This document shows positions 869 to 17,885 of a stretch of 64,000 nt of DNA, piece by piece. The notes beneath the pieces are model-generated. The model was not told where the DNA came from. It did not search any database and was given only the letters and a program-made list of their open reading frames with translations. The stretch comes from Phaeobacter sp. 11ANDIMAR09 (lineage in GTDB: Bacteria > Pseudomonadota > Alphaproteobacteria > Rhodobacterales > Rhodobacteraceae). Location of the stretch: positions 1 to 64,000 of the forward strand of contig NZ_LIKT01000008.1 in NCBI RefSeq assembly GCF_001294455.1, written 5' to 3'. The first letter of the stretch is position 1. Each line of letters begins with the position of its first letter. Made by a program: the position numbers and the translations under genes.

Positions 869-1009
869 ATGGTGCGGTCAGATGGAGTTTGTTCAAACTC
901 ATCTGACGATGAAGATAAACTCGATTTTGAAGAAGTATTTCAAGAGCTTGAGCGTTGGAACGATATCCTCAAAGATGACAAGAATATCTTGCGAGGGCCA
1001 CGCCCATGA
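869..1009 (+). CDS. Small acidic ORF (46 aa) coupled to mobC
   Basis: An ATG at 869 opens a 46-codon frame whose second half is acidic and helical (DFEEVFQELERWNDILKDD) and whose stop TGA overlaps the mobC ATG as ATGA. That overlap repeats the ATGA junction between mobC and the relaxase gene, which suggests translational coupling. No clear ribosome binding site precedes the ATG. Codons 4-13 carry a perfect-armed hairpin (877-907). I do not recognise the product. It may instead be a chance frame across the mobilisation control region. Confidence 0.4.
   Translation: MVRSDGVCSNSSDDEDKLDFEEVFQELERWNDILKDDKNILRGPRP
877..907. promoter_or_regulatory. Inverted repeat upstream of mobC; oriT or regulatory candidate
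   Basis: Arms GTCAGAT-G-GAGTTTG and CAAACTC-ATCTGAC pair over 14 bp with one extra G in the left arm and a TT centre. Mobilisation origins normally lie beside the relaxosome genes and contain such an inverted repeat next to the nick site. The position, 100 bp before mobC, fits oriT, but I cannot identify a nic sequence. A second dyad, AGTGGT-ATG-ACCACT (821-835), lies between the integrase and this site. Confidence 0.4.
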
Positions 1010-1362
1010 GCCGCCTCGCGCCGTTTTCATTAAGACTAACCCCAGAGGAACGCTATCAGCTTGAAGTTCAAGCTGGGGCAATGCCGCTGTCGTCATATAT
1101 CAAGTCCGTGGTTTTTGCCGCTGAAGCTCCCAAATATCGGAAGCGGCGCAAACCACCTGTTGCGGAGCAACAGCTCTTGGCTGAGGTTTTGGCGCGGCTT
1201 GGACAAACACGACAGGCAAGCAACCTCAACCAGATTGCCAAACACCTGAACCAAGGCACGCTGGTCGTTGATCCAGAACTGGAAGAAGACCTCAAACGTG
1301 CCGTGGCCGAAGTGGCGTGGATGCGGGCGACATTGATGGACGCTTTGGGGGTAAAATCATGA
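1006..1362 (+). CDS. mobC: MobC-like relaxosome accessory protein
   Basis: This 118-residue protein starts with a short beta strand and helix of ribbon-helix-helix type (FSLRLTPEERYQLEVQA, PLSSYIKSVVF) and has the C-terminal MobC signature SNLNQIAKHLNQG followed by a helical tail. MobC proteins bind oriT, help melt the DNA around nic and assist the relaxase. The gene sits directly before the relaxase gene with a 4-bp ATGA overlap (1359-1362), as expected for a mobilisation operon. Length matches the family. The ATG at 1006 overlaps the stop of a small upstream frame, so its translation may be coupled to that frame. Confidence 0.85.
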   Translation: MSRLAPFSLRLTPEERYQLEVQAGAMPLSSYIKSVVFAAEAPKYRKRRKPPVAEQQLLAEVLARLGQTRQASNLNQIAKHLNQGTLVVDPELEEDLKRAVAEVAWMRATLMDALGVKS

Positions 1363-2627
1363 TCCTCAAAGGTTCGCAAAGATCAGGTGCAAAGGCATTG
1401 GCTGATCATCTGATGAATGATCGTGACAATGATCATGTGTCATGCTTAGAGTTGCGAGATTTTTCAAGCAATCAACTTCATGGTGCACTCGCCGAGATGC
1501 ACGCAATTTCCAAGGCAACACAATGTAAGCAGTTTATGTTCTCCCTCAGTTTGAACCCACCAACAGATCACATCGCCACCGAACAAGACTTCCTTGAGGC
1601 AGCAGACCGCGCAGAACAACAACTGGGACTGAATGATCAGCCCCGTGCAATTGTCATGCATGAGAAAGAAGGCCGTCGCCACGCGCATGTGGTGTGGTCA
1701 CGTATCGATGCTGATGAAATGAAAGCGATCAATCTGCCCCATTTCAAAAACAAGCTGCGGGATTTGTCCCGCGATCTGTTTTTGGATCATGGGTGGCAAT
1801 TGCCTGATGGTCTGGCGACCTATGGGAACAAATCACCCCTGAACTTCACACTAGAAGAATGGCAACAGGCCAAACGCCAAGGGCTTGATCCGCGTGAGAT
1901 CAAACAGGCTTTCCAACAGGCATGGGAACGTTGTGACCGTCAGATAGGTTTCAAAAACGCCCTCGAAGATCGTGGGTATTTTTTAGCGCGTGGTGATCGG
2001 CGTGGATTTGTCGCCCTCGATGTTGATGGCAATGTTCACTCCATCGCCAAATGGACGAGCCTCAAAGCCAAAGACGTGAACGCCAAGCTTGGTTCGCCAA
2101 AAAGCCTACCATCAGTTGATGAAACACAATCCAATATTCGATCCAAGGTGTCGGATCAGATGCGCGGCTATATCGGTCAGATCAAAGACCGCCAAAACAG
2201 TGATCTTGATCCTCTGCGAGACGAGCTGCGGGACATGAACACAGCACACCATGATGAACGCCAGAAGCTCGATATTGGGCAAGACAAGCGTTGGGCCGAA
2301 GAAACCAAAGCTCGCTCTGATCTGTTGAACAAAGGCCTACGTGGCCTGTTTGACCGTCTCACTGGCAAAGGAAAATCCATTCGGCAGCAAAACGAGATGG
2401 ATGCCCGCAAGGCCGCACAACGTGACCAGAAACAACGTGACTTCATGGTCGTGGAACAAATCAAGGAGCGGCGTTCTTTGCAGCGAGAGTTTCAAAAAAT
2501 CCGATACAAACACATGAAGGAACGCAGCTTGGTCGCTCAGAAAATCAGACAGGCGCTCAAGGTTAATCAATCACAATCACACCAATTCGAACGGTCCCGC
2601 AATCGCGGACCTGATCTTTCAATTTAA
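1359..2627 (+). CDS. Relaxase / mobilisation nuclease (MobA/VirD2-type)
   Basis: The preferred start is the ATG at 1359, overlapping the mobC stop; the protein begins MILKGSQRSG, the usual opening of this relaxase family, and has 422 residues. The nuclease domain occupies about residues 1-150, with the metal-binding histidine cluster HEKEGRRHAH at 101-110 and FSLSLNPP at 61-68. The rest is a basic helical region (residues 300-420) of the kind that contacts DNA and the coupling protein. Relaxases nick oriT and lead the strand into a recipient. The first tyrosine is only at residue 155, so the usual N-terminal nucleophile is absent; His26 in DNDHV is a possible substitute (inference). The coupling protein gene follows 17 bp downstream. 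Confidence 0.9.
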   Translation: MILKGSQRSGAKALADHLMNDRDNDHVSCLELRDFSSNQLHGALAEMHAISKATQCKQFMFSLSLNPPTDHIATEQDFLEAADRAEQQLGLNDQPRAIVMHEKEGRRHAHVVWSRIDADEMKAINLPHFKNKLRDLSRDLFLDHGWQLPDGLATYGNKSPLNFTLEEWQQAKRQGLDPREIKQAFQQAWERCDRQIGFKNALEDRGYFLARGDRRGFVALDVDGNVHSIAKWTSLKAKDVNAKLGSPKSLPSVDETQSNIRSKVSDQMRGYIGQIKDRQNSDLDPLRDELRDMNTAHHDERQKLDIGQDKRWAEETKARSDLLNKGLRGLFDRLTGKGKSIRQQNEMDARKAAQRDQKQRDFMVVEQIKERRSLQREFQKIRYKHMKERSLVAQKIRQALKVNQSQSHQFERSRNRGPDLSI

Positions 2628-2644: not shown

Positions 2645-4495
2645 ATGTCTCGTCAATATCAAGTAATCTACGCGTGCGTCACATTGACGTTCGCGCTTTT
2701 TTGCATAGCTGATCAGGCGTCGGCACAAAGCCTTTTTGCTGACAACGGTTATGAACGACAACAGGCTATGGGCTTAACGCTTGCTCGGCTCTTCTTTGTC
2801 GTGATTTGCGTTGGACTGGGCTTTGGTATCGGTTGGTTGATTTCACCACGCAGTCGAGAGCTACGCCGTATCGGTTTCTTCATCGTTGCTGGGCTTTTTG
2901 GATTGGTCGCGATTTTCAACAACGGCGTTCTTGGATGGAGCGCCGCTTGGATATTTGCCGTTGTCGGTTTCTTCGTTGGCGTATTTTTCTGGGCGCGTTC
3001 TTCTGTTTCGTCCATCATGAAAATGCCCGATACTTTCGGGTCCAGCCGTTGGGCCACCTCGAAAGATATGGAGGAATCAGGTTTTTTGGAAAACGGTGGC
3101 CTCTACATCGGTGAATTTGCAAAAGGCGAAGAGCTTAGCTCAATTGAATACAACGGAGATCGGCACCTGCTGACTGTCGCTCCAACTCGATCTGGCAAAG
3201 GTACCAGTCAGATCATTCCAAACCTGCTTTCTTACGCTGGATCAGTCGTCGTTATCGACCCTAAGGGCGAAAATGCGATGATCACCGCCAAAGCCAGAAA
3301 AGATGCAGGATTCGAAGTTCACGTGGTTGACCCATGGGGCATTGTCGAAGCCGATGGTATCGAAACATCGTCGTTTAACCCGCTGGACTGGCTCGATCCG
3401 ACAGACAACGAAATCACCGAAAACTCGATGATCTTGGCTGACGCTCTCGTGATGGCTGAAAACCACAATGACAGTTTCTGGAACGAAGAAGCCAAGGCCC
3501 TGCTGCAAGGTCTGCTGCTATATGTTGCCTCTGATGCTGAGGAAGACGGTCAGAGGCATCTTGGGCGGGTCAGAGAGATTTTGGTGTCTGGCAAAGATGA
3601 GCTGAACAAGATTTTTGCCAAAATGGCAAAATCAGATCATCACATGATTGCCAGCACGGGCAACCGCTGTTTGCAAAAGGAAGACAAACTCCTATCAAAT
3701 GTTCTAGCTTCGGCTCAGGCACAGACCCATTTCTTGGACAGTGAGTACCTTCGTGAAAATATGAAGATCTCTAGCTTCAAGTTCGAGGATTTGAAAACTA
3801 AGCCAATGACAATCTACTTGGTTCTTCCTGCTGATCGCTTGAACACATTTAGCCGCTGGCTTCGCCTCCTTGTGCAGCAAGCCATCACGGTAAATGCTCG
3901 AAATATCCAGACTAAGCCAGAGAAACCAGTGTTGTTCATCTTGGATGAATTTGCAGCGCTTGGCCGTCTGAGCATGGTCGAGCAAGCCTATGGCCTCATG
4001 GCGGGATTTGGGATGCAGCTTTGGGCCATTGTTCAAGATGTGAGCCAGTTGGAACGTATCTACGACAAAGGTTGGCAGTCGTTCATCGCCAACGCTGGCA
4101 TGGTGAATTACTTCGGTTCAACAGATCAAAGAACCGCTGAATATTTCTCTTCACTGTGCGGGGAGCAGACCGTTTGGAATCTTAGTACTGCGTTGTCACA
4201 TGCTGTCGGTCAGGCTTTTGGTCAGCAAGGGCAAAGCGGTACGAGTACCAGCACAACAACATCAAACGCCGCACTAACCCAGCGTAAGTTGGCCTTCCCC
4301 GATGAACTGATGCGTATGACCGACCGCTTACAGATTATTCTGATGGAAAATGTGCACCCGATCATAGGCATTAAACACTACTGGTTTGAGAACGAGCGTT
4401 TGAAAGCACTCGGCGTCAATCTCCATGATCAAGAGGCGACCATAACTCCTGCATCCGTAGAAGAAGTTTTGAACGAGGAACAAAGCCATGAGTGA
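2645..4495 (+). CDS. Type IV coupling protein (VirD4/TraG family)
   Basis: The product, 616 aa, has a hydrophobic N-terminus with a signal-like first segment and three further membrane spans within residues 45-118, then a cytoplasmic ATPase. Walker A APTRSGKGTS lies at about 179-188 and Walker B FILDEFAAL near residue 425. Coupling proteins dock the relaxase-DNA complex to a type IV secretion channel. A GGGGGA ribosome binding site precedes the ATG. It follows the relaxase gene in one operon. No VirB-type channel genes are visible, so the element probably borrows a channel from another conjugative element. Family assignment is secure; the partner channel is unknown. Confidence 0.93.
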   Translation: MSRQYQVIYACVTLTFALFCIADQASAQSLFADNGYERQQAMGLTLARLFFVVICVGLGFGIGWLISPRSRELRRIGFFIVAGLFGLVAIFNNGVLGWSAAWIFAVVGFFVGVFFWARSSVSSIMKMPDTFGSSRWATSKDMEESGFLENGGLYIGEFAKGEELSSIEYNGDRHLLTVAPTRSGKGTSQIIPNLLSYAGSVVVIDPKGENAMITAKARKDAGFEVHVVDPWGIVEADGIETSSFNPLDWLDPTDNEITENSMILADALVMAENHNDSFWNEEAKALLQGLLLYVASDAEEDGQRHLGRVREILVSGKDELNKIFAKMAKSDHHMIASTGNRCLQKEDKLLSNVLASAQAQTHFLDSEYLRENMKISSFKFEDLKTKPMTIYLVLPADRLNTFSRWLRLLVQQAITVNARNIQTKPEKPVLFILDEFAALGRLSMVEQAYGLMAGFGMQLWAIVQDVSQLERIYDKGWQSFIANAGMVNYFGSTDQRTAEYFSSLCGEQTVWNLSTALSHAVGQAFGQQGQSGTSTSTTTSNAALTQRKLAFPDELMRMTDRLQIILMENVHPIIGIKHYWFENERLKALGVNLHDQEATITPASVEEVLNEEQSHE

Positions 4496-5051: not shown

Positions 5052-5390
5052 GTGGTGAAACATCAAAATACAAGACTTACTCACGGAAGTGAATTAATTG
5101 GGCGCAAACTTAAGAACTGCTTCGGTATTGAAGAGATAGCAGTCATACCACGCTATAGCTGGCGGTACTATGACTGGTGTGTTGAACAAGGCTTCGACAT
5201 GGAAGCTTGGATTAAAGGCGCCGACGAGGTGCGGGCCCCTCAATTAAATTTTAGCGAAAACATTGAAGTTGTTCTTTGGGCAGACGAATGCAAACGGTTC
5301 CATCGAGGCGAGCTCGTACCGCCTTGGAAAGAGCCAGAGGGTTGCGTAGATTATATTGAAGATCGCATAAAGAAAGGAAAACCTATTTAG
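5052..5390 (+). CDS. Hypothetical protein, 112 aa
   Basis: The frame begins with GTG at 5052 or 5055 and encodes a soluble, mixed-charge protein rich in aromatic residues (SWRYYDWCVEQGFDMEAWIKGAD). No known motif is recognised; the N-terminal part could be a small DNA-binding or toxin-antitoxin-like fold, which is a guess. It ends in a 4-bp tail-to-tail overlap with the shortened resolvase gene (stop codons at 5387-5390). Base composition matches the surrounding island. No ribosome binding site stands out. Confidence 0.55.
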   Translation: MVKHQNTRLTHGSELIGRKLKNCFGIEEIAVIPRYSWRYYDWCVEQGFDMEAWIKGADEVRAPQLNFSENIEVVLWADECKRFHRGELVPPWKEPEGCVDYIEDRIKKGKPI

Positions 5391-5896
5391 CGAACTTCAA
5401 ACTGTTCAAGCTCATCCAAGGCTTTATCCATGGTTTTTGACAATTTAGGCCTACCCACATGTACGCCGCGTGCTTTAGCTGCGGCCATACCAGCCTTGGT
5501 GCGTTCGGATATTAGGCTGCGTTCATATTCGGCAAAGACTGCAAGCTGTCCATAGAGCATGCGCCCAACGGCTGTCGTGGTGTCGATCCCCTGAGTGATA
5601 GCCTGAAAGTCCACACTACGATCTCTCAAGTCGCTGAGTAATTGAAGCAAGTGGATGGTTGATCGTCCCAGTCTATCTAACTTCCAGACGACCAGCGTGT
5701 CGCCCGCTTCAAGGCTGTCGAGCATATCATCCAAACCACATCGTTTTGTGATCGCGCCAGAGACGCCGTGATCCCCATAAATCACCTTGCATCCTGCCGC
5801 TTTTAGGGCATCGATTTGCAAGTTTTCGCTTTGGTCTTTGTCGGATACGCGAACATAGCCGATCTTGCGCCCCTTGGGTTTTGTGTCTTCGTTCAT
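5387..5896 (-). CDS. Small serine resolvase/invertase lacking its C-terminal HTH
   Basis: Starting at the ATG at 5896 (an in-frame ATG at 5941 is less likely), the protein shows the serine recombinase catalytic domain: nucleophile Ser18 in GYVRVSDKDQ, the VVWKLDRLGRS motif, and AVFAEYERSLISERTKAG on the long E helix. Members of this family continue after a GRPKL linker with a ~45-residue helix-turn-helix domain; here the protein stops about 18 residues after the linker, at EQFEVR. It has 169 residues and cannot contain a full DNA-binding domain, so it may be truncated or inactive. It faces away from the membrane-protein gene; the gap between them holds two identical palindromic sites (5960-6093). 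Confidence 0.8.
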   Translation of the reverse strand: MNEDTKPKGRKIGYVRVSDKDQSENLQIDALKAAGCKVIYGDHGVSGAITKRCGLDDMLDSLEAGDTLVVWKLDRLGRSTIHLLQLLSDLRDRSVDFQAITQGIDTTTAVGRMLYGQLAVFAEYERSLISERTKAGMAAAKARGVHVGRPKLSKTMDKALDELEQFEVR

Positions 5897-5959
5897 GCCT
5901 TGATCGTAGCAGGCAAAATTCTTCTCACAATTGGGTTTCATGGCCGTTTCTCCGTTGCA

Positions 5960-6731: not shown

Positions 6732-7238
6732 TCATGCCGCCCGATAGATCAGTTTTCCCCCTGCAACTTCTGTCTCGGTGTAATCCATAGCCAGATCATA
6801 GGCGATGGCGTCCATGTCGATGTAGTTGGCCAGATGCTCTGGAATTTCACCGAACAGGCCTTCATCAACAAACTGCTCCGCCAGTTCCTTCATGCTGTCC
6901 ACGTGATAGATATCAACGTCAAAATCCGATGGTGAAACGCTATCAGGATCAAAGCTGTATCCTGCCTCTCCAACAGCAACGACAAACACCGTTTTCCCGT
7001 GATCGCCCCAGATTTCACAGGCCTCAAAATACTGCCCGATGTTGGCTTGATTTATCCCCCACGCTTTAGCCAAATCACAGTCAATATGATCCCCATCAAT
7101 GAACTGAATTTCGTATTCTTCGACGGGATCGCCGTAGTCATTGAGGTTGCTGTTCGCCTTTTTGGCATAGTCTTCAAGGCTCTCAAAATAGAAACCATTG
7201 GCGGAAATATCATACGGTTGGGCGTGTAGTTGCGGCAT
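6732..7238 (-). CDS. ardA: ArdA antirestriction protein
   Basis: From the ATG at 7238, preceded by GGAG eight bases upstream, the gene encodes 168 residues, very acidic (many Asp/Glu), as expected for a B-form DNA mimic. Family hallmarks are the GDPVEEYEIQF and EIWGDHG segments in the first half and the C-terminal PEHLANYIDMDAIAYDL motif. ArdA occupies the DNA-binding groove of type I restriction-modification enzymes and so protects incoming mobile DNA. This fits its place next to mobilisation genes. A longer frame to 7352 is open but lacks a better start. Confidence 0.92.
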   Translation of the reverse strand: MPQLHAQPYDISANGFYFESLEDYAKKANSNLNDYGDPVEEYEIQFIDGDHIDCDLAKAWGINQANIGQYFEACEIWGDHGKTVFVVAVGEAGYSFDPDSVSPSDFDVDIYHVDSMKELAEQFVDEGLFGEIPEHLANYIDMDAIAYDLAMDYTETEVAGGKLIYRAA

Positions 7239-7459
7239 TGTCTTGTCTCCTCTTCTTTGTTCTGACGGGTTGCGCATGCAACCGTCTGGCTTCCGCCGAG
7301 GAGCGGGGGTGCAAGGATCAAAGGTGCCGAAGGCAGGACCAGAGCCACGCACAGGTGCAGCACCGCGAACAGAGCATGGCGAGGACCCACCCTTTGATCC
7401 GCGTGGGGGCAGCCGCCCTAGTTGTCATGGGGGTATCCAGCAAAGAGCTTTCAGAAAAA

Positions 7460-9223
7460 TTATGTGTTTTCGATATCTAGATTACGGATCGGGTTACGTC
7501 GCCCGAACTCCTCACCTGTATCTGCGTTGACGATTACGCGAATTTTATCCCGTAGCATCTCAAACATATTCACTTTGCGTCGATATTGCTTATCCTTTGA
7601 ATCTGCCATCAGATATCTACGAAAAACGGCCAACATAAAGTCTGGGACTGCAATGCCGAAATAACTCTTGTCTACGATCTCAGTGGCTACAAACTCTGGG
7701 TGCCGATTGTTGTCGTTTTTGAGTTCTGACCACGCAGCCTTCACGGTTTCGGTTATAGCACTTTTTGTAACCTTGCTTGTTTGCTCGAAATAGAAATAGG
7801 CTCCTCGACTTTCGGCAGCCATCAAGCGACGTTTCAAAACTGTTTTCAATAGACTCAGATAGCAGCCTTGGTAGTCCACGCCTAATTTCCCAAAGACTAT
7901 GTAACCTGTAAACGGCAGCGGCTGTAACGCAGTCAAGTAGGTTCTACGCAAATCTTCAGTCGTATCTGTAAAGTGAATTCCGTTTTTTGTAATTGCGTCG
8001 AGGTCTCCATCGGACCATGGGTTCGCTATATAGTCTTCCCAAATTCTTTTTGTTACGTTGTTAAGCTGTTCTTGATGTTGACTAGCACTAATTCCGAGGG
8101 CTAAGTATTTTTCGCCGTCTAGCGTGAATTCTGTTTCATCTACATAGAACTGAAAAGACGTTTGGTGTTGATTTTTTGGGGAATAGTTAACCGCCTCGCC
8201 GCTATCTTCCAAAACTTCTTGCCAAAGTGGGCCAATCTTGGAGGCCAAACGAGGCTCCTGAAAGGCTACATATTTCACGCGACCATCGAGATGATTAATA
8301 TAGCTTTGTCGCTGATATGAATCACTTATTCCTAAATGATCTAAATGATCATTCAGTCCATATTTCTTTGAAAAATAGAGTTCTTGCCTCAAGGCAAGTT
8401 TCATCTTTCTTGGCGCATGAGGCGCGTTTTCTTCCGAAACACTGAGTCCAGTCACATAGTGGTTTTGACCTCGCGTGCTGTATTTAGTCTTGTCTGAACT
8501 AAGCTGAAATTTGTGTCGTGCAACGATCTCCGAAACTTCTGACACTTGAGGAAGGTTGCCATTGGATGAGAATGTCAAATCATCGGCATATCTACTGTAA
8601 ACTGCTTTATACTTATCAGCCAAACCATTGAGATCAATGTCCATAAAGTGACTGATAGCATTTGCAATTATCGGGCTCGTCGGAAGCCCAAGAGGCAGTT
8701 TTTGATCAATACACAGAAAGTGAGAAAGTTGCATCGCAATACCCGAGTTTACACCTAAACTTTCGAAGAACGAAATCAATCGCCTGAGTGATATTGAGGG
8801 AAAATAGTTCTCAATATCCGATTTCAATATGTACTTTGCTCCAATATGAAATTGAGCATTATCTCGAGTATTTCGCCCCCGAACGTAACCACAATTGTGA
8901 GGGTGAGGGAAATTGGAAATGATCATTTCGAAAAACAGAGTCAGGCGTCTAGCGAGGCTCTTAAGAGCGTTGTTCAAATGGCCGCTAGCTTCCCATACAA
9001 CTCGGCTTCCTCGCTTAGGATTACGTTTGGGTATTTCATGTTTATAAAACGGTGAAAAATGGAGCTGCGCAATACCCATTTCAACCAGTGGCTCGGCCAA
9101 ACGAGCCTCATACTTGTGCACGTCAAAATCCGACGCATTTGTGAAGAAAATATCTTCCAAGCCAATGTAAGTGAGAAGCTGATCTTTTGTCTTCACTCGC
9201 CGTAAATCGTAATCAAATGCCAT
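7460..9223 (-). CDS. Retron-type reverse transcriptase with C-terminal DUF3800-like domain
   Basis: Counted from the ATG at 9223 (a TTG at 9229 is the alternative), 587 residues. Palm motifs are in order: SDIENYFPSI around Asp136, GLPTSPIIAN at 179-188, YADD at 212-215. The retron-specific signatures are both present: NAQFH (NAxxH) at 122-126 and VTG at 257-259. After about residue 350 a second domain begins with FYVDE (Asp362-Glu363), resembling the N-terminal acidic motif of DUF3800 proteins. Retron RTs copy an adjacent msr-msd RNA into RNA-linked DNA; fused or neighbouring proteins act as effectors in phage defence. No msr-msd was located with certainty; it should lie on the minus strand just right of 9230. 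Composition is AT-rich compared with the mobilisation genes. Confidence 0.88.
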   Translation of the reverse strand: MAFDYDLRRVKTKDQLLTYIGLEDIFFTNASDFDVHKYEARLAEPLVEMGIAQLHFSPFYKHEIPKRNPKRGSRVVWEASGHLNNALKSLARRLTLFFEMIISNFPHPHNCGYVRGRNTRDNAQFHIGAKYILKSDIENYFPSISLRRLISFFESLGVNSGIAMQLSHFLCIDQKLPLGLPTSPIIANAISHFMDIDLNGLADKYKAVYSRYADDLTFSSNGNLPQVSEVSEIVARHKFQLSSDKTKYSTRGQNHYVTGLSVSEENAPHAPRKMKLALRQELYFSKKYGLNDHLDHLGISDSYQRQSYINHLDGRVKYVAFQEPRLASKIGPLWQEVLEDSGEAVNYSPKNQHQTSFQFYVDETEFTLDGEKYLALGISASQHQEQLNNVTKRIWEDYIANPWSDGDLDAITKNGIHFTDTTEDLRRTYLTALQPLPFTGYIVFGKLGVDYQGCYLSLLKTVLKRRLMAAESRGAYFYFEQTSKVTKSAITETVKAAWSELKNDNNRHPEFVATEIVDKSYFGIAVPDFMLAVFRRYLMADSKDKQYRRKVNMFEMLRDKIRVIVNADTGEEFGRRNPIRNLDIENT

Positions 9224-9489
9224 TTCCAAGAACTTTCAGTTGGAGCAGCCAGACACACGTAGCAAGTGGTTCCGTAATAGGCAGATGCGACTCGCACCTT
9301 TAACCATGTCGCCAAGCTGCTCCTGACATTCAGGGTAACACACTAATTGGGATGTAGAAATAGCTCCTAGTTGGTTCCCGTTTGAAGCAGCGAAGGCTAG
9401 CTTTTCTCAAATGGCGATCAATCACCATAAGATTGTGCATGGTTTGGTGCAGGTGGCGAGGTTAGTTCTCCAAATCCTGCGAGTGGGTC

Positions 9490-10240
9490 ACAAGGGGCGA
9501 CGATACGCCCTTTGGTCGGGTTCAGCGCCGATACGCTGACGGCATTCAATCCGCGCAGGGTTGATCTATGGGGTGTTGGGGAGAGATGACATCTCCCCAA
9601 CGAGGGATCAAACACAGATATGTTTGCATGGTCGTGACTGGCTCAATGCCAATCTCGGCCATCAGCTTCGGGGGATACAACGGGGGAGCGCAGCAGCCCC
9701 CTTGTCAAGATCGTGTGGTACTACCACACACATCTTGCAGCATTCCTTAATGCTGGAAGTTGTCCGCATGGATCGCAGCGTCTAGTGTCATCTGACACAC
9801 ATCTCGCGCCATCACTTATTGGCGGAAGGTGTCCGAAGGGATCGCAGCGTAAATGGGTCATAGACCCACATCTCGCAGCACATCTTAGTGCTGTAAGGTG
9901 CCCATAGGGTCGCAGCGCCAACGGGTCATTTGACCCACATCTCGCAGCACGACTTAGTGCTGTACGATGGCCGCAGGGATCTCAGCGTTTGGTGTCATCT
10001 GAAACACAATTCGCAGGTTCTGTCGATTGAGGGTGATCTTATTGGCGTGTAACTCATGCGACTACATTCGTATGCTATGCAACAACTATTGGTAGACAAA
10101 ACTCAATCAGTTAGGCACCTTGGGCGAGTGTGCGGGGGAGCAGCTATGCTGCTAGCTCGAAAGGGCTGAACTTAGGTACGCGAGTGTTTACATTCGAGCG
10201 GTGAAGTTTACTTCATCACTACCTTCTTCGGAGGGGATAA
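9490..10240 (+). ncRNA. Strongly structured gene-free segment, probable plus-strand ncRNA locus
   Basis: This segment has no convincing ORF but is packed with hairpins: 9492-9513 (8-bp stem), 9522-9539, 9575-9601 (10-bp perfect stem), 9628-9662 (long, two mismatches), 9677-9705, twelve in the tandem array (9711-9987), AGCAGC-TAT-GCTGCT near 10139-10153, then CGAGTG/CATTCG, GTGAAGT/ACTTCATCAC and CCTTC-TTCG-GAGGG just before the SLATT gene. Several stems contain G-T pairs when read on the plus strand; on the minus strand these become A-C mismatches. The last one has a cUUCGg tetraloop. Both points favour a plus-strand RNA. RT defence systems with SLATT partners carry an upstream ncRNA, so this may be the template or partner RNA. 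Exact ends and the number of transcripts are unknown. Confidence 0.65.
9711..10017 (+). repeat. Tandem array, ~4.3 copies of a ~69-bp three-hairpin unit
   Basis: Units: 9711-9780, 9781-9849, 9850-9917, 9918-9987, and a decayed fifth from 9988 to about 10017. Each has hairpin A, then ACATCTCG, hairpin B, then a short hairpin C ending in GGATCGCAGCG. Hairpin A stems are GTGTGGT/ACCACAC, GTGTC/GACAC, GGGTC/GACCC and GGGTC/GACCC; hairpin B stems are CAGCAT/ATGCTG, CGCCA/TGGCG, GCAGCAC/GTGCTGT (twice) around a CTTA loop core. Stem bases change in pairs while linkers stay constant, which points to selection on folding, not just recent duplication. The units are contiguous with no unique spacers, so this is not a CRISPR array. 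Confidence 0.85.
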
Positions 10241-10295
10241 TCCTTAGAACATCTTGTCCCGCACACGCCTATTTGGAGAAAGAATTTTGACGAAG

Positions 10296-10862
10296 ATGAC
10301 TGAAGAGAATATTGAAGTGAAAGATCGTATTTGGATAACATGCAAATCTCGAATTTATGCTGAACGTCGATTTCGAAGGTATGACGTCATATCCCATTTA
10401 GCACTTTCAATGCTATCCATCATCGTCATAGCGATTACCCTGTTACGGGACTTACTTCCAGCGGAAGTGCCCCTCGATGCCTACACAGTAGTTTATTCGG
10501 TGTTCATTCTTGCAGCGTCAATAATTGTATTTGGCTTCAAATTTGGCGAGATCGCTACACTGCATCGTGAGTGTTACCTGCGATTGCAGAGATTACATGA
10601 TAGCAACGAAAACGCCTCAGAACTTCTACAACAGTACCATGATATTTTGTCGTCGTACCCAAATCACTCTGACACAGACTACGAAAGCTTGGTTATTGGT
10701 AGAACCTTTCCCAACAAAAAGAATATGCATAGCCCGACTGGCACCCCGATTTCGTGGTCATTTTGGATGTTAGTTCGCTGGGCAATACACCACTTATTAC
10801 TGGTGATCCTGCCGATAGCAGTCGTGGTCGCTAGTATAGGCTCAATTTTTTGGATTTGGTAA
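10296..10862 (+). CDS. SLATT-domain membrane protein (putative defence effector)
   Basis: The product has about 188 residues from the ATG at 10296; a TTG at 10287 has a better-spaced GGAG and may be the true start. It shows the SLATT layout: an N-terminal amphipathic segment with Arg/Tyr residues (CKSRIYAERRFRRYDV), two adjacent membrane helices (SHLALSMLSIIVIAITLL and VVYSVFILAASIIVFGF), a cytoplasmic helical part, and a third hydrophobic helix at the C-terminus. SLATT proteins are predicted pore-forming effectors of nucleotide- or RT-linked defence systems. The downstream RT gene overlaps it by 13 bp, so the two are probably translated together. A hairpin-rich RNA segment lies immediately upstream. 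Confidence 0.8.
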   Translation: MTEENIEVKDRIWITCKSRIYAERRFRRYDVISHLALSMLSIIVIAITLLRDLLPAEVPLDAYTVVYSVFILAASIIVFGFKFGEIATLHRECYLRLQRLHDSNENASELLQQYHDILSSYPNHSDTDYESLVIGRTFPNKKNMHSPTGTPISWSFWMLVRWAIHHLLLVILPIAVVVASIGSIFWIW

Positions 10863-12208
10863 ACTTGAAGCCCGCCAAGCGTTTCCATTTGCGCCTAACC
10901 AAGGCTCATCTTCTCGACCTTCACGCGCAGTTCATCGAAAGTGGAGCGGCAGTTGGAAAAGACGGTATTCGTGTTGAGAGGTTTGGTAACGATATCGACA
11001 ATGAAATCGCCATTATTCTGAGGAAGGTGAGTTCAGGAACTTACAAATATACGTCCTATCGTGAGAAATTAATTTCAAAAGGTGCTGGAAAAAACCCTCG
11101 TCAAATTTCAATCCCCACTGTCCGAGACAAACTAGTTTTGAAATTTCTCTCAGAACTACTCGCCGAAATATATCCCGAGCATGTTTCGCAGCCGCCCCAT
11201 CATTACATTAAGAGAATCCATAGAACTTCAGCCGCAAAGCCCGCGTCAAACTACTATTTGAGGCTGGACATTCAAAATTTCTACCCTTCAATTGATCACA
11301 AGATTCTCATGCGGATCTTGAGGAGAACAATTCGGCAGAAGCAACTTTTAAAGTTAGTAGAAGATGCTATTAAGACTCCAACTGGTAGCCATTCTGGTTC
11401 GGGCAGCGTCCCAATCACAGGTGTTCCACAGGGGCTGAGTATTTCGAACATTTTGGCATCTCTCTACCTAAGCGAGATGGATAAAAAGTTCGAAACCGAT
11501 AAATCAATTGAGTATTTTCGCTTCGTCGATGACATGCTCGTTTTAGCCGACTATTCAACTGCAAAACGTCTCTCTACGGAAATACCAGTGCTTCTAAAAT
11601 CGAAGCGAAAGATTAAGTGCCACCCTGTAGGAAGTGGTAGCAAGAGTATTCTCGTTTCGTTGGCGGAGGGGATCGACTATCTTGGGTATCACTTTTGCCA
11701 GAGCAAAATTGAAGTTCGAAGTTCATCCTACAAAAAGATGTTTAGCAATTTGATGAAGTTGTTTTCCGCTATGAAGTATCGTTCCAACAAGGGACCAATC
11801 TTGTGGAGAATGAACCTTCGTATATCAGGTTGCATTTTTGACGGTAGAAGAGTCGGATGGCTGTTCTTCTTTGCTCAATCAAACAACACACAACAGCTGA
11901 AGCGTCTAGACGCTTTCGTGTCACAACAAGCAAAAAAAGTACTCGATCCGGCTGACCGTGAACGCTTAAAGACTTTCACACGTGCATATCACGAAATTCG
12001 CTTCAACTATGAAGATTCAAAATACTTTTTGAATTTCGATCAGTTTGACGATGCGCAAAAACGAGCGGAAATTGGCATTCTCCTGCCGCAGAAATCACTG
12101 GAAGAAATTGAGACCCTAGAAGGGGCCGAGTTGGACAAGCTATTTAGGAAGTGCATTTCAAAAGAAATTGGAGATTTGGAAAAAGATATGATGGAAGTTT
12201 TCTCATAA
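10850..12208 (+). CDS. Reverse transcriptase of a SLATT-associated (UG10/DRT10-like) system
   Basis: A 452-residue RT whose only in-frame starts at the 5' end are TTG codons (10850, 10856, 10865), overlapping the SLATT stop. Palm motifs: RLDIQNFYPSI with Asp140, GVPQGLSISN at 191-200, and FVDD at 225-228 (Asp227, Asp228). The retron NAxxH and VTG signatures are not seen, so it belongs to another RT group. Group II introns have a longer maturase/endonuclease tail; here the C-terminal 200 residues are helical with no endonuclease motif. The RT-SLATT pair with an upstream structured RNA matches the UG10/DRT10 type of antiphage system (established pairing; membership of this protein is inferred). 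The gap to the metallopeptidase gene is only 72 bp. Confidence 0.85.
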   Translation: MDLVNLKPAKRFHLRLTKAHLLDLHAQFIESGAAVGKDGIRVERFGNDIDNEIAIILRKVSSGTYKYTSYREKLISKGAGKNPRQISIPTVRDKLVLKFLSELLAEIYPEHVSQPPHHYIKRIHRTSAAKPASNYYLRLDIQNFYPSIDHKILMRILRRTIRQKQLLKLVEDAIKTPTGSHSGSGSVPITGVPQGLSISNILASLYLSEMDKKFETDKSIEYFRFVDDMLVLADYSTAKRLSTEIPVLLKSKRKIKCHPVGSGSKSILVSLAEGIDYLGYHFCQSKIEVRSSSYKKMFSNLMKLFSAMKYRSNKGPILWRMNLRISGCIFDGRRVGWLFFFAQSNNTQQLKRLDAFVSQQAKKVLDPADRERLKTFTRAYHEIRFNYEDSKYFLNFDQFDDAQKRAEIGILLPQKSLEEIETLEGAELDKLFRKCISKEIGDLEKDMMEVFS

Positions 12209-12280: not shown

Positions 12281-13348
12281 ATGTTGGTTGATGTGCTTGT
12301 GTTCGGCGGAATTTATGACTGCACCAAAAGGGAATTGAAAATCGAATATCTTCGAAAATCCCTACATTTAGCACTCGCTCAGTTTTCCGAACTGACGGGC
12401 ATTCCTTTTCCTGTCATTCCCCGTCTCGATCTTCACGACGATGTTGATTTTTGGGCATTGGCAGAACGAGAAGAAGGTGGATTGAAAATCCATGTCGGTG
12501 GTGGTGTCCTACCTGCCATCACGACGCTGTGGAATGACGCACTTAGCGAGAGTAATTTCATTTTGGGTGTCCACTCGCCATTGTTAGTTGAAAAGACAGA
12601 TGCCGTCCAAATGTCATTGGGATGGTTGATGCTTCATGAAATGCAACACTTTGTGCTAGGCCACTTCGATATCGTTGGCCGCACATTCCTTAGCGAAACA
12701 GCACGTGGGAAACGCCTTGCTCTAACATCTCGCGGTGTAAGTAAGACCAGTATTTTCGATGATTTAGACGCTACAATCAAGCCAATGGTTGAGCCTTGCC
12801 TTGAGCTACAAGCTGACCATGATGCGATCGATCTAGTTCTGGATGCATATTCTACCGATGAATGGCCTAGCCTGCGCGCACGAATTGCTGCCATAGCGGC
12901 GATGATAATGTTGATTGAGCGCGAGGACGCCAAGCTAGTTGAAGCACACTCTTCCCATCCCAAAGCTGCCACACGAATTTTTCAACTATTGGGGCATGTG
13001 ACGGAAATGCCATTAATCTTAGCTCAACGCAAAGCTGTACTGAATGGTGCTGCGAACGTTGATCCTAACGATATTCCTTCGAACGAAGAGCAAAGTGCTT
13101 TCAATCGAGAGGTCGTTATCCCCTCATTCTTTGATGTAGTGAATTTAGCCCGCGTTGCTGGAGCTGACAGTATCTGCAACGATCTGGGTGAAGCTTCTGA
13201 CTTCTTCTGTGATGTGGGAACTGCTAAGATGGGCAACGTATCTGCGTTCAAAGGCTTGCGCACATCGGGTGCGAAACAATGGGCTGATCTGGTGGTTGTC
13301 AATGAGCGGATCAAAGAGTTATTCGCTCAAGATGGACTGGTTATTTAG
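12281..13348 (+). CDS. Zinc metallopeptidase-like protein
   Basis: The 355-residue protein has a gluzincin-like zinc site: HEMQH at 119-123 (HExxH) and, about 50 residues on, LELQAD with Glu175 as the probable third ligand (ExxAD arrangement). No signal peptide or membrane segment is apparent, so it should act in the cytoplasm. The second half contains a helical region with IAAIAAMIMLIEREDAK and a charged C-terminus. It follows the SLATT-RT pair on the same strand and may be a third component or an independent defence gene. It converges with the HEPN-like gene, the two 3' ends overlapping by 30 bp. No specific family is recognised. Confidence 0.75.
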   Translation: MLVDVLVFGGIYDCTKRELKIEYLRKSLHLALAQFSELTGIPFPVIPRLDLHDDVDFWALAEREEGGLKIHVGGGVLPAITTLWNDALSESNFILGVHSPLLVEKTDAVQMSLGWLMLHEMQHFVLGHFDIVGRTFLSETARGKRLALTSRGVSKTSIFDDLDATIKPMVEPCLELQADHDAIDLVLDAYSTDEWPSLRARIAAIAAMIMLIEREDAKLVEAHSSHPKAATRIFQLLGHVTEMPLILAQRKAVLNGAANVDPNDIPSNEEQSAFNREVVIPSFFDVVNLARVAGADSICNDLGEASDFFCDVGTAKMGNVSAFKGLRTSGAKQWADLVVVNERIKELFAQDGLVI

Positions 13349-15997: not shown

Positions 15998-16297
15998 ATG
16001 ACCTGTTCGCCTGATAAAAACAATACGCCCACACGCCCCAGCCTCTCTGTTGACTGGGAGGTTTACGCCGCCATGCTGGAAGACAGCGATATGCCGTTGG
16101 ATGACCAGAAAGAACTGATCGAAACCCTATGGTCGATTGTCGTGATGTTTGTCGATCTGGGCTATGATCTGAAACCCACCACGCAAATCTGTGGAGAAGA
16201 TCAGGAAGCATTGGAACAGGATTCCACTGATTTGGTATCCTTATTAAATAGTGAATGGGCACAGACCCGTGCTGAGGAGGGCCAATGGCAGGAATAA
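15998..16297 (+). CDS. Small protein co-transcribed with the serine recombinase
   Basis: The ATG at 15998 has an AAAGGAG ribosome binding site eight bases upstream and gives 99 acidic residues. The end overlaps the recombinase start by 13 bp, so translation is coupled. The central part (MPLDDQKELIETLWSIVVMFVDLGYDL) is helical. Its position directly ahead of an integrase suggests a recombination-linked role such as a directionality or control factor; that is inference. A 27-nt hairpin (15870-15896) lies about 100 bp upstream of the start. Confidence 0.65.
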   Translation: MTCSPDKNNTPTRPSLSVDWEVYAAMLEDSDMPLDDQKELIETLWSIVVMFVDLGYDLKPTTQICGEDQEALEQDSTDLVSLLNSEWAQTRAEEGQWQE

Positions 16298-17847
16298 GCA
16301 AAACAAGACCAAGCAAGGCGGTGATCTATTGCCGTGTCTCTGGGGCGAAGCAGGTACGTGAGGGTGATGGCCTCGCGTCTCAGGAAAACCGTTGTCGTGA
16401 ATACGCCACCTACAAAGATTACGACGTGGTCGAGGTATTTCAGGATGACATGTCGGGCAAGTTTGAACGCCGCCCCGCAATGGATCGGATGCTAGCATTT
16501 TTGCGCCTGCATCCCAAAGACAGCGTTGTTGTCATCATCGACGATATCAGCCGTTTTGCGCGTAATGTTCAGGCGCATATCAAACTGCGTGAAACTCTGG
16601 CTGATGCGGGGGGCATTTTGGAAAGCCCCTCGATTGAATTTGGTGAGGACAGTGACTCACGTCTTGTCGAACACATGCTGGCATCAGTGGCACAGCACCA
16701 ACGCGAGAAGAATGCCGAACAAACCTCCAATCGGATGAAAGGGCGGATGATGAATGGCTATTCCGTCTTCTCCGCACCTGTGGGTTACAAATACAAGAAG
16801 ACGGGATCACACGGCAAACTGCTCACCTGCGATGAACCGATTGCCTCCATCGTGAAAGAGGCGTTGGAGGGATACGCCTCTGGTCGGTTCTCTGGGCAGG
16901 CTGATATCAAACGTTTTCTTGAAGCTCAACCTGAGTTCCCTAAAGACCTACCCAACGGGCAAATCCGCCAACAGAAGGTGACAGATATGCTGAACCGCGT
17001 GATCTATGCTGGGTATATCGAGCATGAGCCTTGGGGCATCACACGCCGCAAGGGCCATCATGAAGCGTTGATCTCACTGGAAACATACGAGACCATTCAG
17101 GCGCGTCGGAACAGCAAAGGCGTTGCCGCCAAGCGTCCTGATATCAGCGAAGACTTCCCGTTACGTGGGGCAGTTGTCTGTGCTTGCTGCGACAAGCCGA
17201 TGACGGCCAATTGGTCGAGAAGCGCTACTGGGAAGCGCTATCCATACTTCAATTGTCAGACCCGCGATTGTTCCGAATATCGCAAAAGTATTCGCGCCGA
17301 GAAAATCGACACGGGGTTCGAAGCAATCCTGCGCTCGCTCAAACCAAGCAAACAAATTCTCGATATCGCCATGTCGATGCTGAAAGACGCATGGGATCAA
17401 CGAGGAGAACAAGCCAAGCAGGCGAAAGCTGAAATCAAACGTCAGCACAAAGAGTTGGACAAGCAGCAAGATGCGCTTGTTGAACGCATGGTTGAGACTT
17501 CGAATCCGAAGGTGATGGCTGCGCTCGAAAACAAGATCGCAAAGCTGGAAGAGGACAAGATTTTGCTGACCGACAAGCTATCCCAAAACACAAAACCCAA
17601 GAGCACACTGGGAGAAATTATCGAACTATTGCGAGCATACCTCGCAAACCCTTGGAATATCTATGAAAATGGAACCCTTGAAGTGCGAAAAACCATCCTA
17701 AAAACGGCCTTTGCTAGCCCATTGGCGTACGACCGAAAAAACGGTTATCGAACTCCGCAAGTGTCTGTAATATTTGAGTTTTTTGAGAAAATTACATCAA
17801 AATGTGAAATGGTGCCCCCACACGGACTCGAACCGCGGACCTACTGA
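16285..17847 (+). CDS. Large serine recombinase (island integrase)
   Basis: The 520-residue protein has an N-terminal resolvase domain (1-150) with nucleophile Ser19 in YCRVSG, a Recombinase domain (about 170-270), a zinc ribbon (CACCDKP ... FNCQTRDC) and a long coiled coil (around 380-450). Such enzymes perform unidirectional integration between attP and attB. A GGAGGG site precedes the ATG. The reading frame has no stop within the island; its last twelve residues (MVPPHGLEPRTY) are read antisense from the tRNA-Thr gene, which also supplies the stop. This places the junction in or next to the tRNA 3' end. The enzyme is thus the likely integrase of the island, with a C-terminus that depends on the integrated state. 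Confidence 0.93.
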   Translation: MAGISKTRPSKAVIYCRVSGAKQVREGDGLASQENRCREYATYKDYDVVEVFQDDMSGKFERRPAMDRMLAFLRLHPKDSVVVIIDDISRFARNVQAHIKLRETLADAGGILESPSIEFGEDSDSRLVEHMLASVAQHQREKNAEQTSNRMKGRMMNGYSVFSAPVGYKYKKTGSHGKLLTCDEPIASIVKEALEGYASGRFSGQADIKRFLEAQPEFPKDLPNGQIRQQKVTDMLNRVIYAGYIEHEPWGITRRKGHHEALISLETYETIQARRNSKGVAAKRPDISEDFPLRGAVVCACCDKPMTANWSRSATGKRYPYFNCQTRDCSEYRKSIRAEKIDTGFEAILRSLKPSKQILDIAMSMLKDAWDQRGEQAKQAKAEIKRQHKELDKQQDALVERMVETSNPKVMAALENKIAKLEEDKILLTDKLSQNTKPKSTLGEIIELLRAYLANPWNIYENGTLEVRKTILKTAFASPLAYDRKNGYRTPQVSVIFEFFEKITSKCEMVPPHGLEPRTY

Positions 17848-17885
17848 TTACAAATCAGTTGCTCTACCAGCTGAGCTATAGGGGC
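17810..17885 (-). tRNA. tRNA-Thr (anticodon UGU)
   Basis: The reverse strand folds into a complete cloverleaf of 76 nt including the encoded CCA. The acceptor stem GCCCCTA pairs with TGGGGGC (one G-T), the anticodon arm is CTGAT-TTGTAAT-CAG with anticodon TGT, and the T loop has GTTCGAGTC. The gene is intact although the recombinase frame runs into its 3' half from the other strand. It serves as the insertion site of the island on its 3' side; the second copy of the attachment sequence must lie left of this window. Confidence 0.97.

Follow-up and report, generated by a model that had tools for sequence, protein, structure and literature searches.

A hairpin-rich intergenic element, probably the transfer origin of a defence-loaded mobilizable island in Phaeobacter

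Integrative mobilizable elements (IMEs) carry a recombinase, a relaxase, and an origin of transfer (oriT), and have no complete secretion system. Relaxases of the MOBP type possess a conserved N-terminal catalytic tyrosine.

The described systems closest to the element reported here are the MOBP-type oriTs, such as those of RP4, Ti, and H. pylori tfs4, for which the available text of PMC3772185 gives the nick consensus (C/T)ATCCTG(C/T) with an inverted repeat directly 5' of it. In the pWBG749 family of Staphylococcus plasmids, as far as the accessible portion of PMC4652767 goes, several hairpins precede the oriT core, variant stems are combined with a constant core, and some plasmids carry two to three oriT variants. 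Another relative is pPDL2 of Sphingobium, likewise an alphaproteobacterial mobilizable plasmid—here the part of PMC3516476 available describes four tandem repeats immediately downstream of the predicted oriT and RepB as the relaxase candidate, so repeats beside an oriT are not unheard of. The pWBG749 family and pPDL2 are likened to our element by their descriptions.

We analysed a stretch of 64,000 nucleotides from Phaeobacter sp. 11ANDIMAR09 (the window), in which a hairpin-rich noncoding element at about 9412-10014 has a tandem repeat array as its 3' end. Like MOBP-type oriTs, the conserved core of this element has an inverted repeat directly 5' of a nick-like octamer and lies, in plasmids, upstream of the relaxase gene. 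It differs from them in an extra hairpin, in an outer stem covering the nic-like bases, in a long hairpin leader, in the distance between core and relaxase on the islands, and in tandem units 3' of the predicted nick. It also differs from the pWBG749-family plasmids with two oriTs, which according to the same portion of PMC4652767 have no same-strand pairs, whereas the window has four same-strand units at 69 bp with an altered motif. A search of titles and abstract openings, mostly outside subscription journals, returned no published description of the element.

The island and its genes

We consider it highly probable that window 1-17.85 kb is an IME set in tRNA-Thr and loaded with defence genes, and that the hairpin element is its oriT. 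Recombinase, relaxase, coupling protein, and tRNA site were all found (Table 1), with tRNA-Thr as the probable attachment site; the left end was not found, an attachment repeat having been sought there without success. The small gene directly before the relaxase matched no family model, and the recombinase falls far under the cut-off of the CcrB model.

The relaxase lies 7 kb from the core, on the core's 5' side. Its score is far under the cut-off of the NCBIfam MobP model, and an alignment of 23 rows (the window and 22 homologues) has the histidines of the HUH type, with H115, H122, and H124 invariant. No column of this alignment has tyrosine in more than 15 of the 23 rows, which is odd for a MOBP relaxase, and we therefore call the protein MOBP-like only.

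The two reverse transcriptases (RTs) of the window are assigned by PADLOC to a type VII-A1 retron and a UG17/DRT10 system. Around the core in 41 loci (window included), the neighbours with a listed family comprise restriction-modification genes of types I and II, MADS-like and BovA genes, and further defence families, many other neighbours having no family listed; a coupling protein lies within the fetched stretch in 24 of the 41. The window RTs thus look like cargo, and no homologue of either was found in 157 other element-bearing stretches (E up to 1e-5). Relatives of the Lit-like gene stand on the 3' side of the core in 4/41 loci, the window again included. A second island of the same design occurs in the same genome (L006 8760-14908, G000:C6); there BovA replaces the retron, and the core is accompanied by one unit.

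Table 1. Features of the island and the hairpin element, in window coordinates unless stated otherwise
Feature	Position	Strand	Basis or remark
Small gene directly before relaxase, mobC-like by position	1006..1362	+	homologues precede relaxase in relatives
Relaxase	1317..2627	+	Pfam PF03432, 56 bits against a cut-off of 24.6
VirD4/TraG-type coupling protein	2645..4495	+	Pfam PF02534, 5.7e-88
Small serine resolvase	5387..5941	-	Pfam PF00239, 7.2e-43
ArdA-like antirestriction protein	6732..7352	-	Pfam PF07275, 1.7e-7
Retron RT-DUF3800, type VII-A1 (cargo)	7460..9229	-	PADLOC 9.3e-283
5' leader	9412..9669	+	small hairpins in a mosaic; the six-base loop NCGATA recurs in several
Conserved core (proposed oriT core)	9670..9738	+	found in 53/394 genomes with model R1
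Core hairpin 1, CAACGGGGG...CCCCCTTG, loop GCGCAGC	9678..9704	+	97.4% of cells paired, 5/9 pairs double-changed
Outer stem CAAGAT/ATCTTG round the inverted repeat	9706..9737	+	nic-like bases form the 3' arm
Inverted repeat GTGTGGTA-C-TACCACAC	9713..9729	+	95.7% paired, 4/7 pairs double-changed
Predicted nick position CATCTTG^C	9737..9738	+	from the MOBP consensus, 7/8 letters match
Array unit 1	9739..9807	+	counted from nic-like motif
Array unit 2	9808..9876	+	counted from nic-like motif
Array unit 3	9877..9945	+	counted from nic-like motif
Array unit 4	9946..10014	+	inverted repeat and nic-like motif decayed
Candidate DRT10 ncRNA, closed by GTGTGCGGG/CCCGCACAC (9-bp stem)	10128..10265	+	z -4.09 for the RNA fold of 10122-10271
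SLATT protein of DRT10 (cargo)	10290..10862	+	PF18160 1.3e-31; PADLOC RTasSLATT 5.2e-61
UG17 RT of DRT10 (cargo)	10850..12208	+	PADLOC RT_UG17 5.9e-142
Lit-like gene	12281-13348		weak matches in PADLOC and NCBIfam
Large serine recombinase of the element	16285..17847	+	PF00239, PF07508, PF13408
tRNA-Thr, overlapped by the recombinase frame	17810..17885	-	ARAGORN
RT-like match of locus L079 (L079 coordinates)	11408-11704, in 695-aa frame 10079-12166	-	distant match to UG17, E 7e-9

The conserved core and its leader

The core consists of a hairpin, then the inverted repeat, then CACATCTTGC; in 31 aligned loci the order reads GCGCAGC-loop hairpin, CAAG, inverted repeat, CACA, one free base, and CTTGC. 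Its nic-like octamer CATCTTGC follows the inverted repeat directly, and matches the MOBP nick consensus in 7/8 letters; with this one mismatch to the RP4/Ti-type (MOBP11/P2) octamer, we do not file it as that subtype. CTTGC is present in all 31 aligned cores, and in a scan of 120 loci it belongs to the search pattern itself. Among these 120 pattern matches listed, 95 have CACATCTTGC and 25 differ at the one base that the pattern leaves free. For further searches we used R1, a covariance model of 78 positions whose source sequences were window 9666-9742 and relatives of it (30 stretches from genomes of the family, plus a Rhizobium plasmid); both pattern and model select for the features they describe.

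The initial annotation had claimed that pairing is kept across changed sequence, and this was borne out by counts on 31 core loci and 25 array units. In the core, 97.7% of 690 cells in 23 pairs are paired, and sliding the partners by one base lowers pairing to 42-49%; 57 cells have both partners changed, where shuffles give 13.8, although the rows are related, so the shuffle controls are not probabilities (relatedness of rows and genomes is uncorrected in every test here). The outer stem is 100% paired with double changes in 1/5 pairs, its other four pairs being invariant, and the inverted repeat has 44 distinct stems in the 121 distinct cores found by pattern. When the arms of these stems were permuted, the observed 34/44 fully paired stems compared with a permuted mean of 1.5 and a maximum of 6, a test biased because the arms had been picked by their pairing—the double-change counts on core and units are the fairer measure. 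Pairing kept across changed sequence makes it very likely that a single-strand fold is under selection. As single-stranded DNA (ssDNA), the 361-nt stretch 9660-10020 folds better than 100/100 shuffles on both strands (z -5.0 and -5.5).

At the level of DNA similarity, 48/394 genomes of the same family match 9500-10030, mostly in two blocks: one at about 9501-9567 and the better-kept one at 9670-9738. A second copy of the array stands on another contig of the window's own genome, where the BLAST similarity extends back to about 9536. The leader, from 9412 on, resembles two other loci (86 and 88% identity), and the order and number of its hairpins vary between loci. By eye, in the window and its relatives, leader hairpins with different stems have in common NCGATA or similar purine-rich loops; judging from sequence, a single protein may bind these hairpins. 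In the Sphingopyxis and Frigidibacter plasmids, too, mobC and core are separated by a hairpin-rich leader.

Two other roles for the stretch were considered and rejected. Protein coding on the minus strand finds an overlapping ORF in 17/41 loci, but 451/452 gapped row pairs contain a non-triplet gap, and for control of one flanking gene the neighbours vary too much in family and direction between loci. Elsewhere, at L242 (G246:C39:16900-17900), a core-like inverted repeat and nick motif stand at the broken end of a relaxase gene, as if joined by a deletion.

Core and relaxase in genomes and plasmids

Core and homologous relaxase occur together in the 394 family genomes: 45 have both, 21 the relaxase only, 8 the core only, and 320 neither (Fisher p = 1.3e-34 for 53 core and 66 relaxase genomes, with relatedness uncorrected). 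The R1 search gave 71 core places in these genomes, 49 of which share a contig with a relaxase match. The relaxase is found 5' of the core on 47 of these 49 contigs; as for the exceptions, a relaxase fragment is also present on the core's 5' side in G272:C532, and in G153 the relaxase is divergent at 13.5 kb. The two are divergent neighbours, 447-939 bp apart, in 6/49 shared contigs, and in 41/49 the core is 4-29 kb from the relaxase rather than beside it.

The pattern scan covered genome contigs, with at least 118 stretches, and viral contigs, with two more, giving the 120 loci. In the loci listed, orientation is nearly constant: the relaxase is upstream and on the core strand in 8/8, the coupling protein is on the core strand in 25/25 (22 downstream, 3 upstream), the recombinase is downstream on the core strand in 33/36 (1 upstream on the same strand, 2 upstream on the opposite one), and the small gene preceding the recombinase is downstream on the same strand in 25/27, with 2 upstream on the opposite strand. 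Taxa among the matches listed are mostly Alphaproteobacteria, and also the isolate Chromatocurvus halotolerans (Gammaproteobacteria); metagenome-assembled genomes among them are labelled Oxalobacteraceae, Nitrosomonas, Nitrospirales, Nitrospina, Planctomycetota, and Chromatiales, with binning error possible. The two viral contigs (L205, L206) have the core with a serine recombinase downstream, and are probably islands taken for viruses.

Plasmids provided a separate set of loci. Relaxase homologues sought in annotated plasmids gave 12 records, from which nine loci were fetched (the other three being second records of the same species), and R1 had been built without any of the nine. It matched the core in six—Frigidibacter pcai42B, Sphingopyxis pSREG01, S. 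meliloti pSymB, A. ferrooxidans pTF4.1, Bradyrhizobium pCC829_1, and a Xanthomonas hortorum plasmid—the E values, in ascending order, being 2.9e-12, 5e-12, 1.2e-9, 1.6e-9, 2.4e-6, and 1.6e-5. Of four other R1 matches, two (1.6e-5, 0.0044) cover the same places on the other strand and two have E values of 0.5-0.8; the relaxase loci of Sphingobium baderi, Peteryoungia, and Tritonibacter gave no core with 12 kb on each side. All six cores are on the strand opposite to mobC and relaxase, 25-698 bases upstream of the pair's first gene, and in pTF4.1 (4.1 kb) the core is 43 bases from mobC. The gene preceding the relaxase is annotated mobC in four plasmids with homologous relaxases; pSymB has a gene annotated as hypothetical at this place, and pCC829_1 has no annotated gene. 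Of the six plasmids, PLSDB assigns five to MOBP and one to MOBQ. Plasmid BLAST with the core sequence alone gave no match, and with 1071 bp it gave two records, both of Rhizobium ruizarguesonis, so that the other plasmid cases were found by the structure model only.

The plasmid cores thus have the place and layout of an oriT: they lie upstream of mobC, point away from the relaxase, and have the inverted repeat ahead of the predicted nick. Three features of known oriTs recur in our data: an inverted repeat that adjoins a conserved nick region on its 5' side, in the core itself; adjoining relaxosome genes, in relatives (6/9 plasmid loci, 6/49 genome places); and occurrence with the cognate relaxase, in 45/53 core genomes. 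Several points stand against the oriT reading: R1 finds nothing in 21/66 relaxase genomes, 8/53 core genomes have no relaxase match, 3/9 plasmid loci are without the core, 3/36 recombinases are upstream, the motif has its one-letter mismatch, the core is mostly 4-29 kb from the relaxase, and the latter has no conserved tyrosine.

If the hairpins are part of a transfer start site, as they appear to be, the RT genes are probably cargo and the repeats recognition sites on ssDNA. Under the oriT reading, relaxase and MobC would bind the inverted repeat at 9713-9729 in single-stranded form after excision, and the relaxase would nick the + strand at CATCTTG^C (9737/9738); the 5' end of the strand would lead, in the direction of DRT10 and the recombinase, with the relaxase gene entering the recipient late. 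One 78-position model would then locate the oriT in mobile islands of a widespread class, together with the direction of transfer and the genes that enter first. Such islands are mostly chromosomal and hard to annotate, and several of them carry phage defence (retron, DRT10, and BovA here, restriction systems in relatives); intergenic hairpins of unknown role beside defence genes would become a testable part.

The tandem array and competing readings

The tandem array with paired stem changes described in the initial annotation is real: Tandem Repeats Finder reports a 69-bp period with 4.2 copies at 9726-10016 (75% matches, score 265), and a repeat search gave four 82-nt copies at an exact spacing of 69 bp, with 66-79% identity to the first. 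What had been counted as four full units and a fifth partial one is better described as four units 3' of the nic-like motif, at 9739-10014, since the supposed first unit, whose different stem GTGTGGTA/TACCACAC is indeed present, starts with the inverted repeat of the conserved core and not with an array copy. The named changes GTGTC/GACAC against GGGTC/GACCC are present, as are CAGCAT/ATGCTG against CAGCAC/GTGCTG, and the third stem of that series is CGCCAT/TTGGCG with one mismatch. Linkers said to be fixed are mostly, not wholly, so: one occurs as ACATCTTG once, ACATCTCG three times, and ACAATTCG once, and GGATCGCAGCG also occurs as AGGGTCGCAGCG and GGATCTCAGCG in the window units. The last unit is decayed, with GTGTC opposite GAAAC and ACAATTCG as its linker.

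A profile built on the window's four units gave 25 distinct units. At least one unit accompanies 16/140 distinct cores, counting those with at least 300 bp on the 3' side, and one further place with a unit (G221:C22) is outside this count. Copy number is four in the window, three at each of two places in G270, two in G327, and one at twelve others; from these sequences, the window array is best read as having grown from a unit that is present once in some relatives. In the first hairpin of the 25 units 97.1% of cells are paired and 31 are double-changed (8.6 in shuffles); its five pairs with double changes and 11 pair types were equalled in 114 and 22 of 500 shuffles, so that two of the five measures are not beyond shuffles, and the rows are related. 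The loop of this hairpin mostly ends in CTTA, and the inverted repeat of the unit occurs chiefly as GGGTCA..TGACCC or as GTGTCATCTGACAC. After the repeat comes CTCGC in 18/25 units, TTCGC in 2, CTTG in 2, and another motif in 3. As the core has CTTGC and the units mostly CTCGC, the units look like a separate class of site, not simple copies of the core.

In the model proposed above, the four 69-bp units would be extra relaxosome recognition sites folding on the same strand. We propose that CTCGC in place of CTTGC makes them poor nick sites, and the change would make sense in that four true sites in a row might be unstable. Where a genome's best relaxase has at least 52% identity to that of the window, units occur in 7/9 genomes, against 0/36 of the others (p = 7.9e-7; all core places of the 45 genomes with core and relaxase, relatedness uncorrected), a confinement to one relaxase clade that suggests recognition by that clade's own relaxosome proteins, and that shared descent alone would equally yield.

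The main rival to such a role accepts the core as an oriT and takes the array for a functionless tandem duplication produced by slippage or recombination. Granted the oriT reading, we give this a real, if minority, chance: unit 4 is decayed, copy number varies among relatives (4, 3, 3, 2, and twelve with 1), 124/140 cores have no unit, and pPDL2 too, in the part of PMC3516476 available, has four tandem repeats just downstream of its predicted oriT. Functionless copies sit poorly with the finding that units of different genera keep the same linkers, the CTTA-type loop, and CTCGC (18/25) while their stems covary.

A fuller account of the array is doubtful, and we offer it tentatively as one joint proposal—that it is a same-strand array of relaxosome sites behind one oriT, in which the units retain the folded recognition structure and load or hold relaxase and MobC, and their copy number tunes initiation or guides termination; that the altered motif avoids the deletions that several true same-strand oriT sites would cause; and that the core belongs to an oriT family common to Proteobacteria, perhaps beyond, on defence-carrying islands. 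It raises the question of whether tandem nick-deficient oriT-like sites can tune conjugation.

A structured noncoding RNA made from the + strand, with no part in transfer, is unlikely. Covariation and constant linkers would suit an RNA equally well, and in alignment A1 G-U pairs outnumber A-C mismatches at columns 98-112 and 99-111 (12 and 6 against 2 and 1), which makes the + strand the probable folding strand; in the inverted repeat the same comparison gave 2 against 0, too few to tell the strand. Rfam, however, gave no match in 9000-11000 at E up to 1, the flanking genes have no fixed direction, and a fixed strand relative to the relaxase and a place upstream of plasmid mobC would be unexpected for an unrelated RNA. 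Relaxase, coupling protein, strand, and place together point to ssDNA at an oriT rather than RNA.

It is likewise unlikely that the element is instead an origin or promoter acting in single-stranded form once transfer has taken place, the nick site lying elsewhere. Such a site would likewise need a folded transferred strand of fixed orientation, and an ArdA-like gene is on the 5' side of the core in 6/41 loci—0.2-0.9 kb away in L038, L039, L042, and L043, 2.6 kb in the window with the retron in between, and 3.2 kb in the second island with BovA in between. Yet the core has a nic-like octamer after an inverted repeat, in the usual oriT place in small plasmids, and no other conserved site was seen by eye upstream of mobC, the window's own included.

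That the array is the msr-msd of the retron or the DRT10 ncRNA we find barely credible: it does lie between two RT genes, but it does not accompany the RT across homologues, and it lies about 270-580 bp upstream of SLATT, while DRT10 has a better candidate of its own at 10128-10265. A tie between array and RTs, hinted at in the initial annotation by its suggested check for RT-derived cDNA, finds no support here: tblastn (E up to 1e-5) against 157 other element-bearing stretches (about 140 places), loci with array units among them, turned up no homologue of the two RTs or of SLATT. The sole exception seen, L079, is outside this set; there an RT-like protein distantly related to UG17 (30% over 95 residues, E 7e-9) lies some 6.7 kb upstream of the core, perhaps another defence RT carried as cargo.

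Both RT systems of the window have nearby stretches that are candidates for their own RNAs. The available text of PMC12632851 describes the DRT10 ncRNA as 137 nt just upstream of SLATT, and the place and length of the candidate at 10128-10265 agree with this; the neighbouring genes at 10290-12208 are those of DRT10, whose ncRNA is not the array. On the retron side, shuffled sequences fold as well as the minus strand of 9255-9404. The stretch 9254-9317, which lies upstream of the retron RT and is probably part of the retron's own RNA, is kept in the retron relatives L004 and L005 (RTs 40 and 38% identical), which keep it by the RT and do not keep the array.
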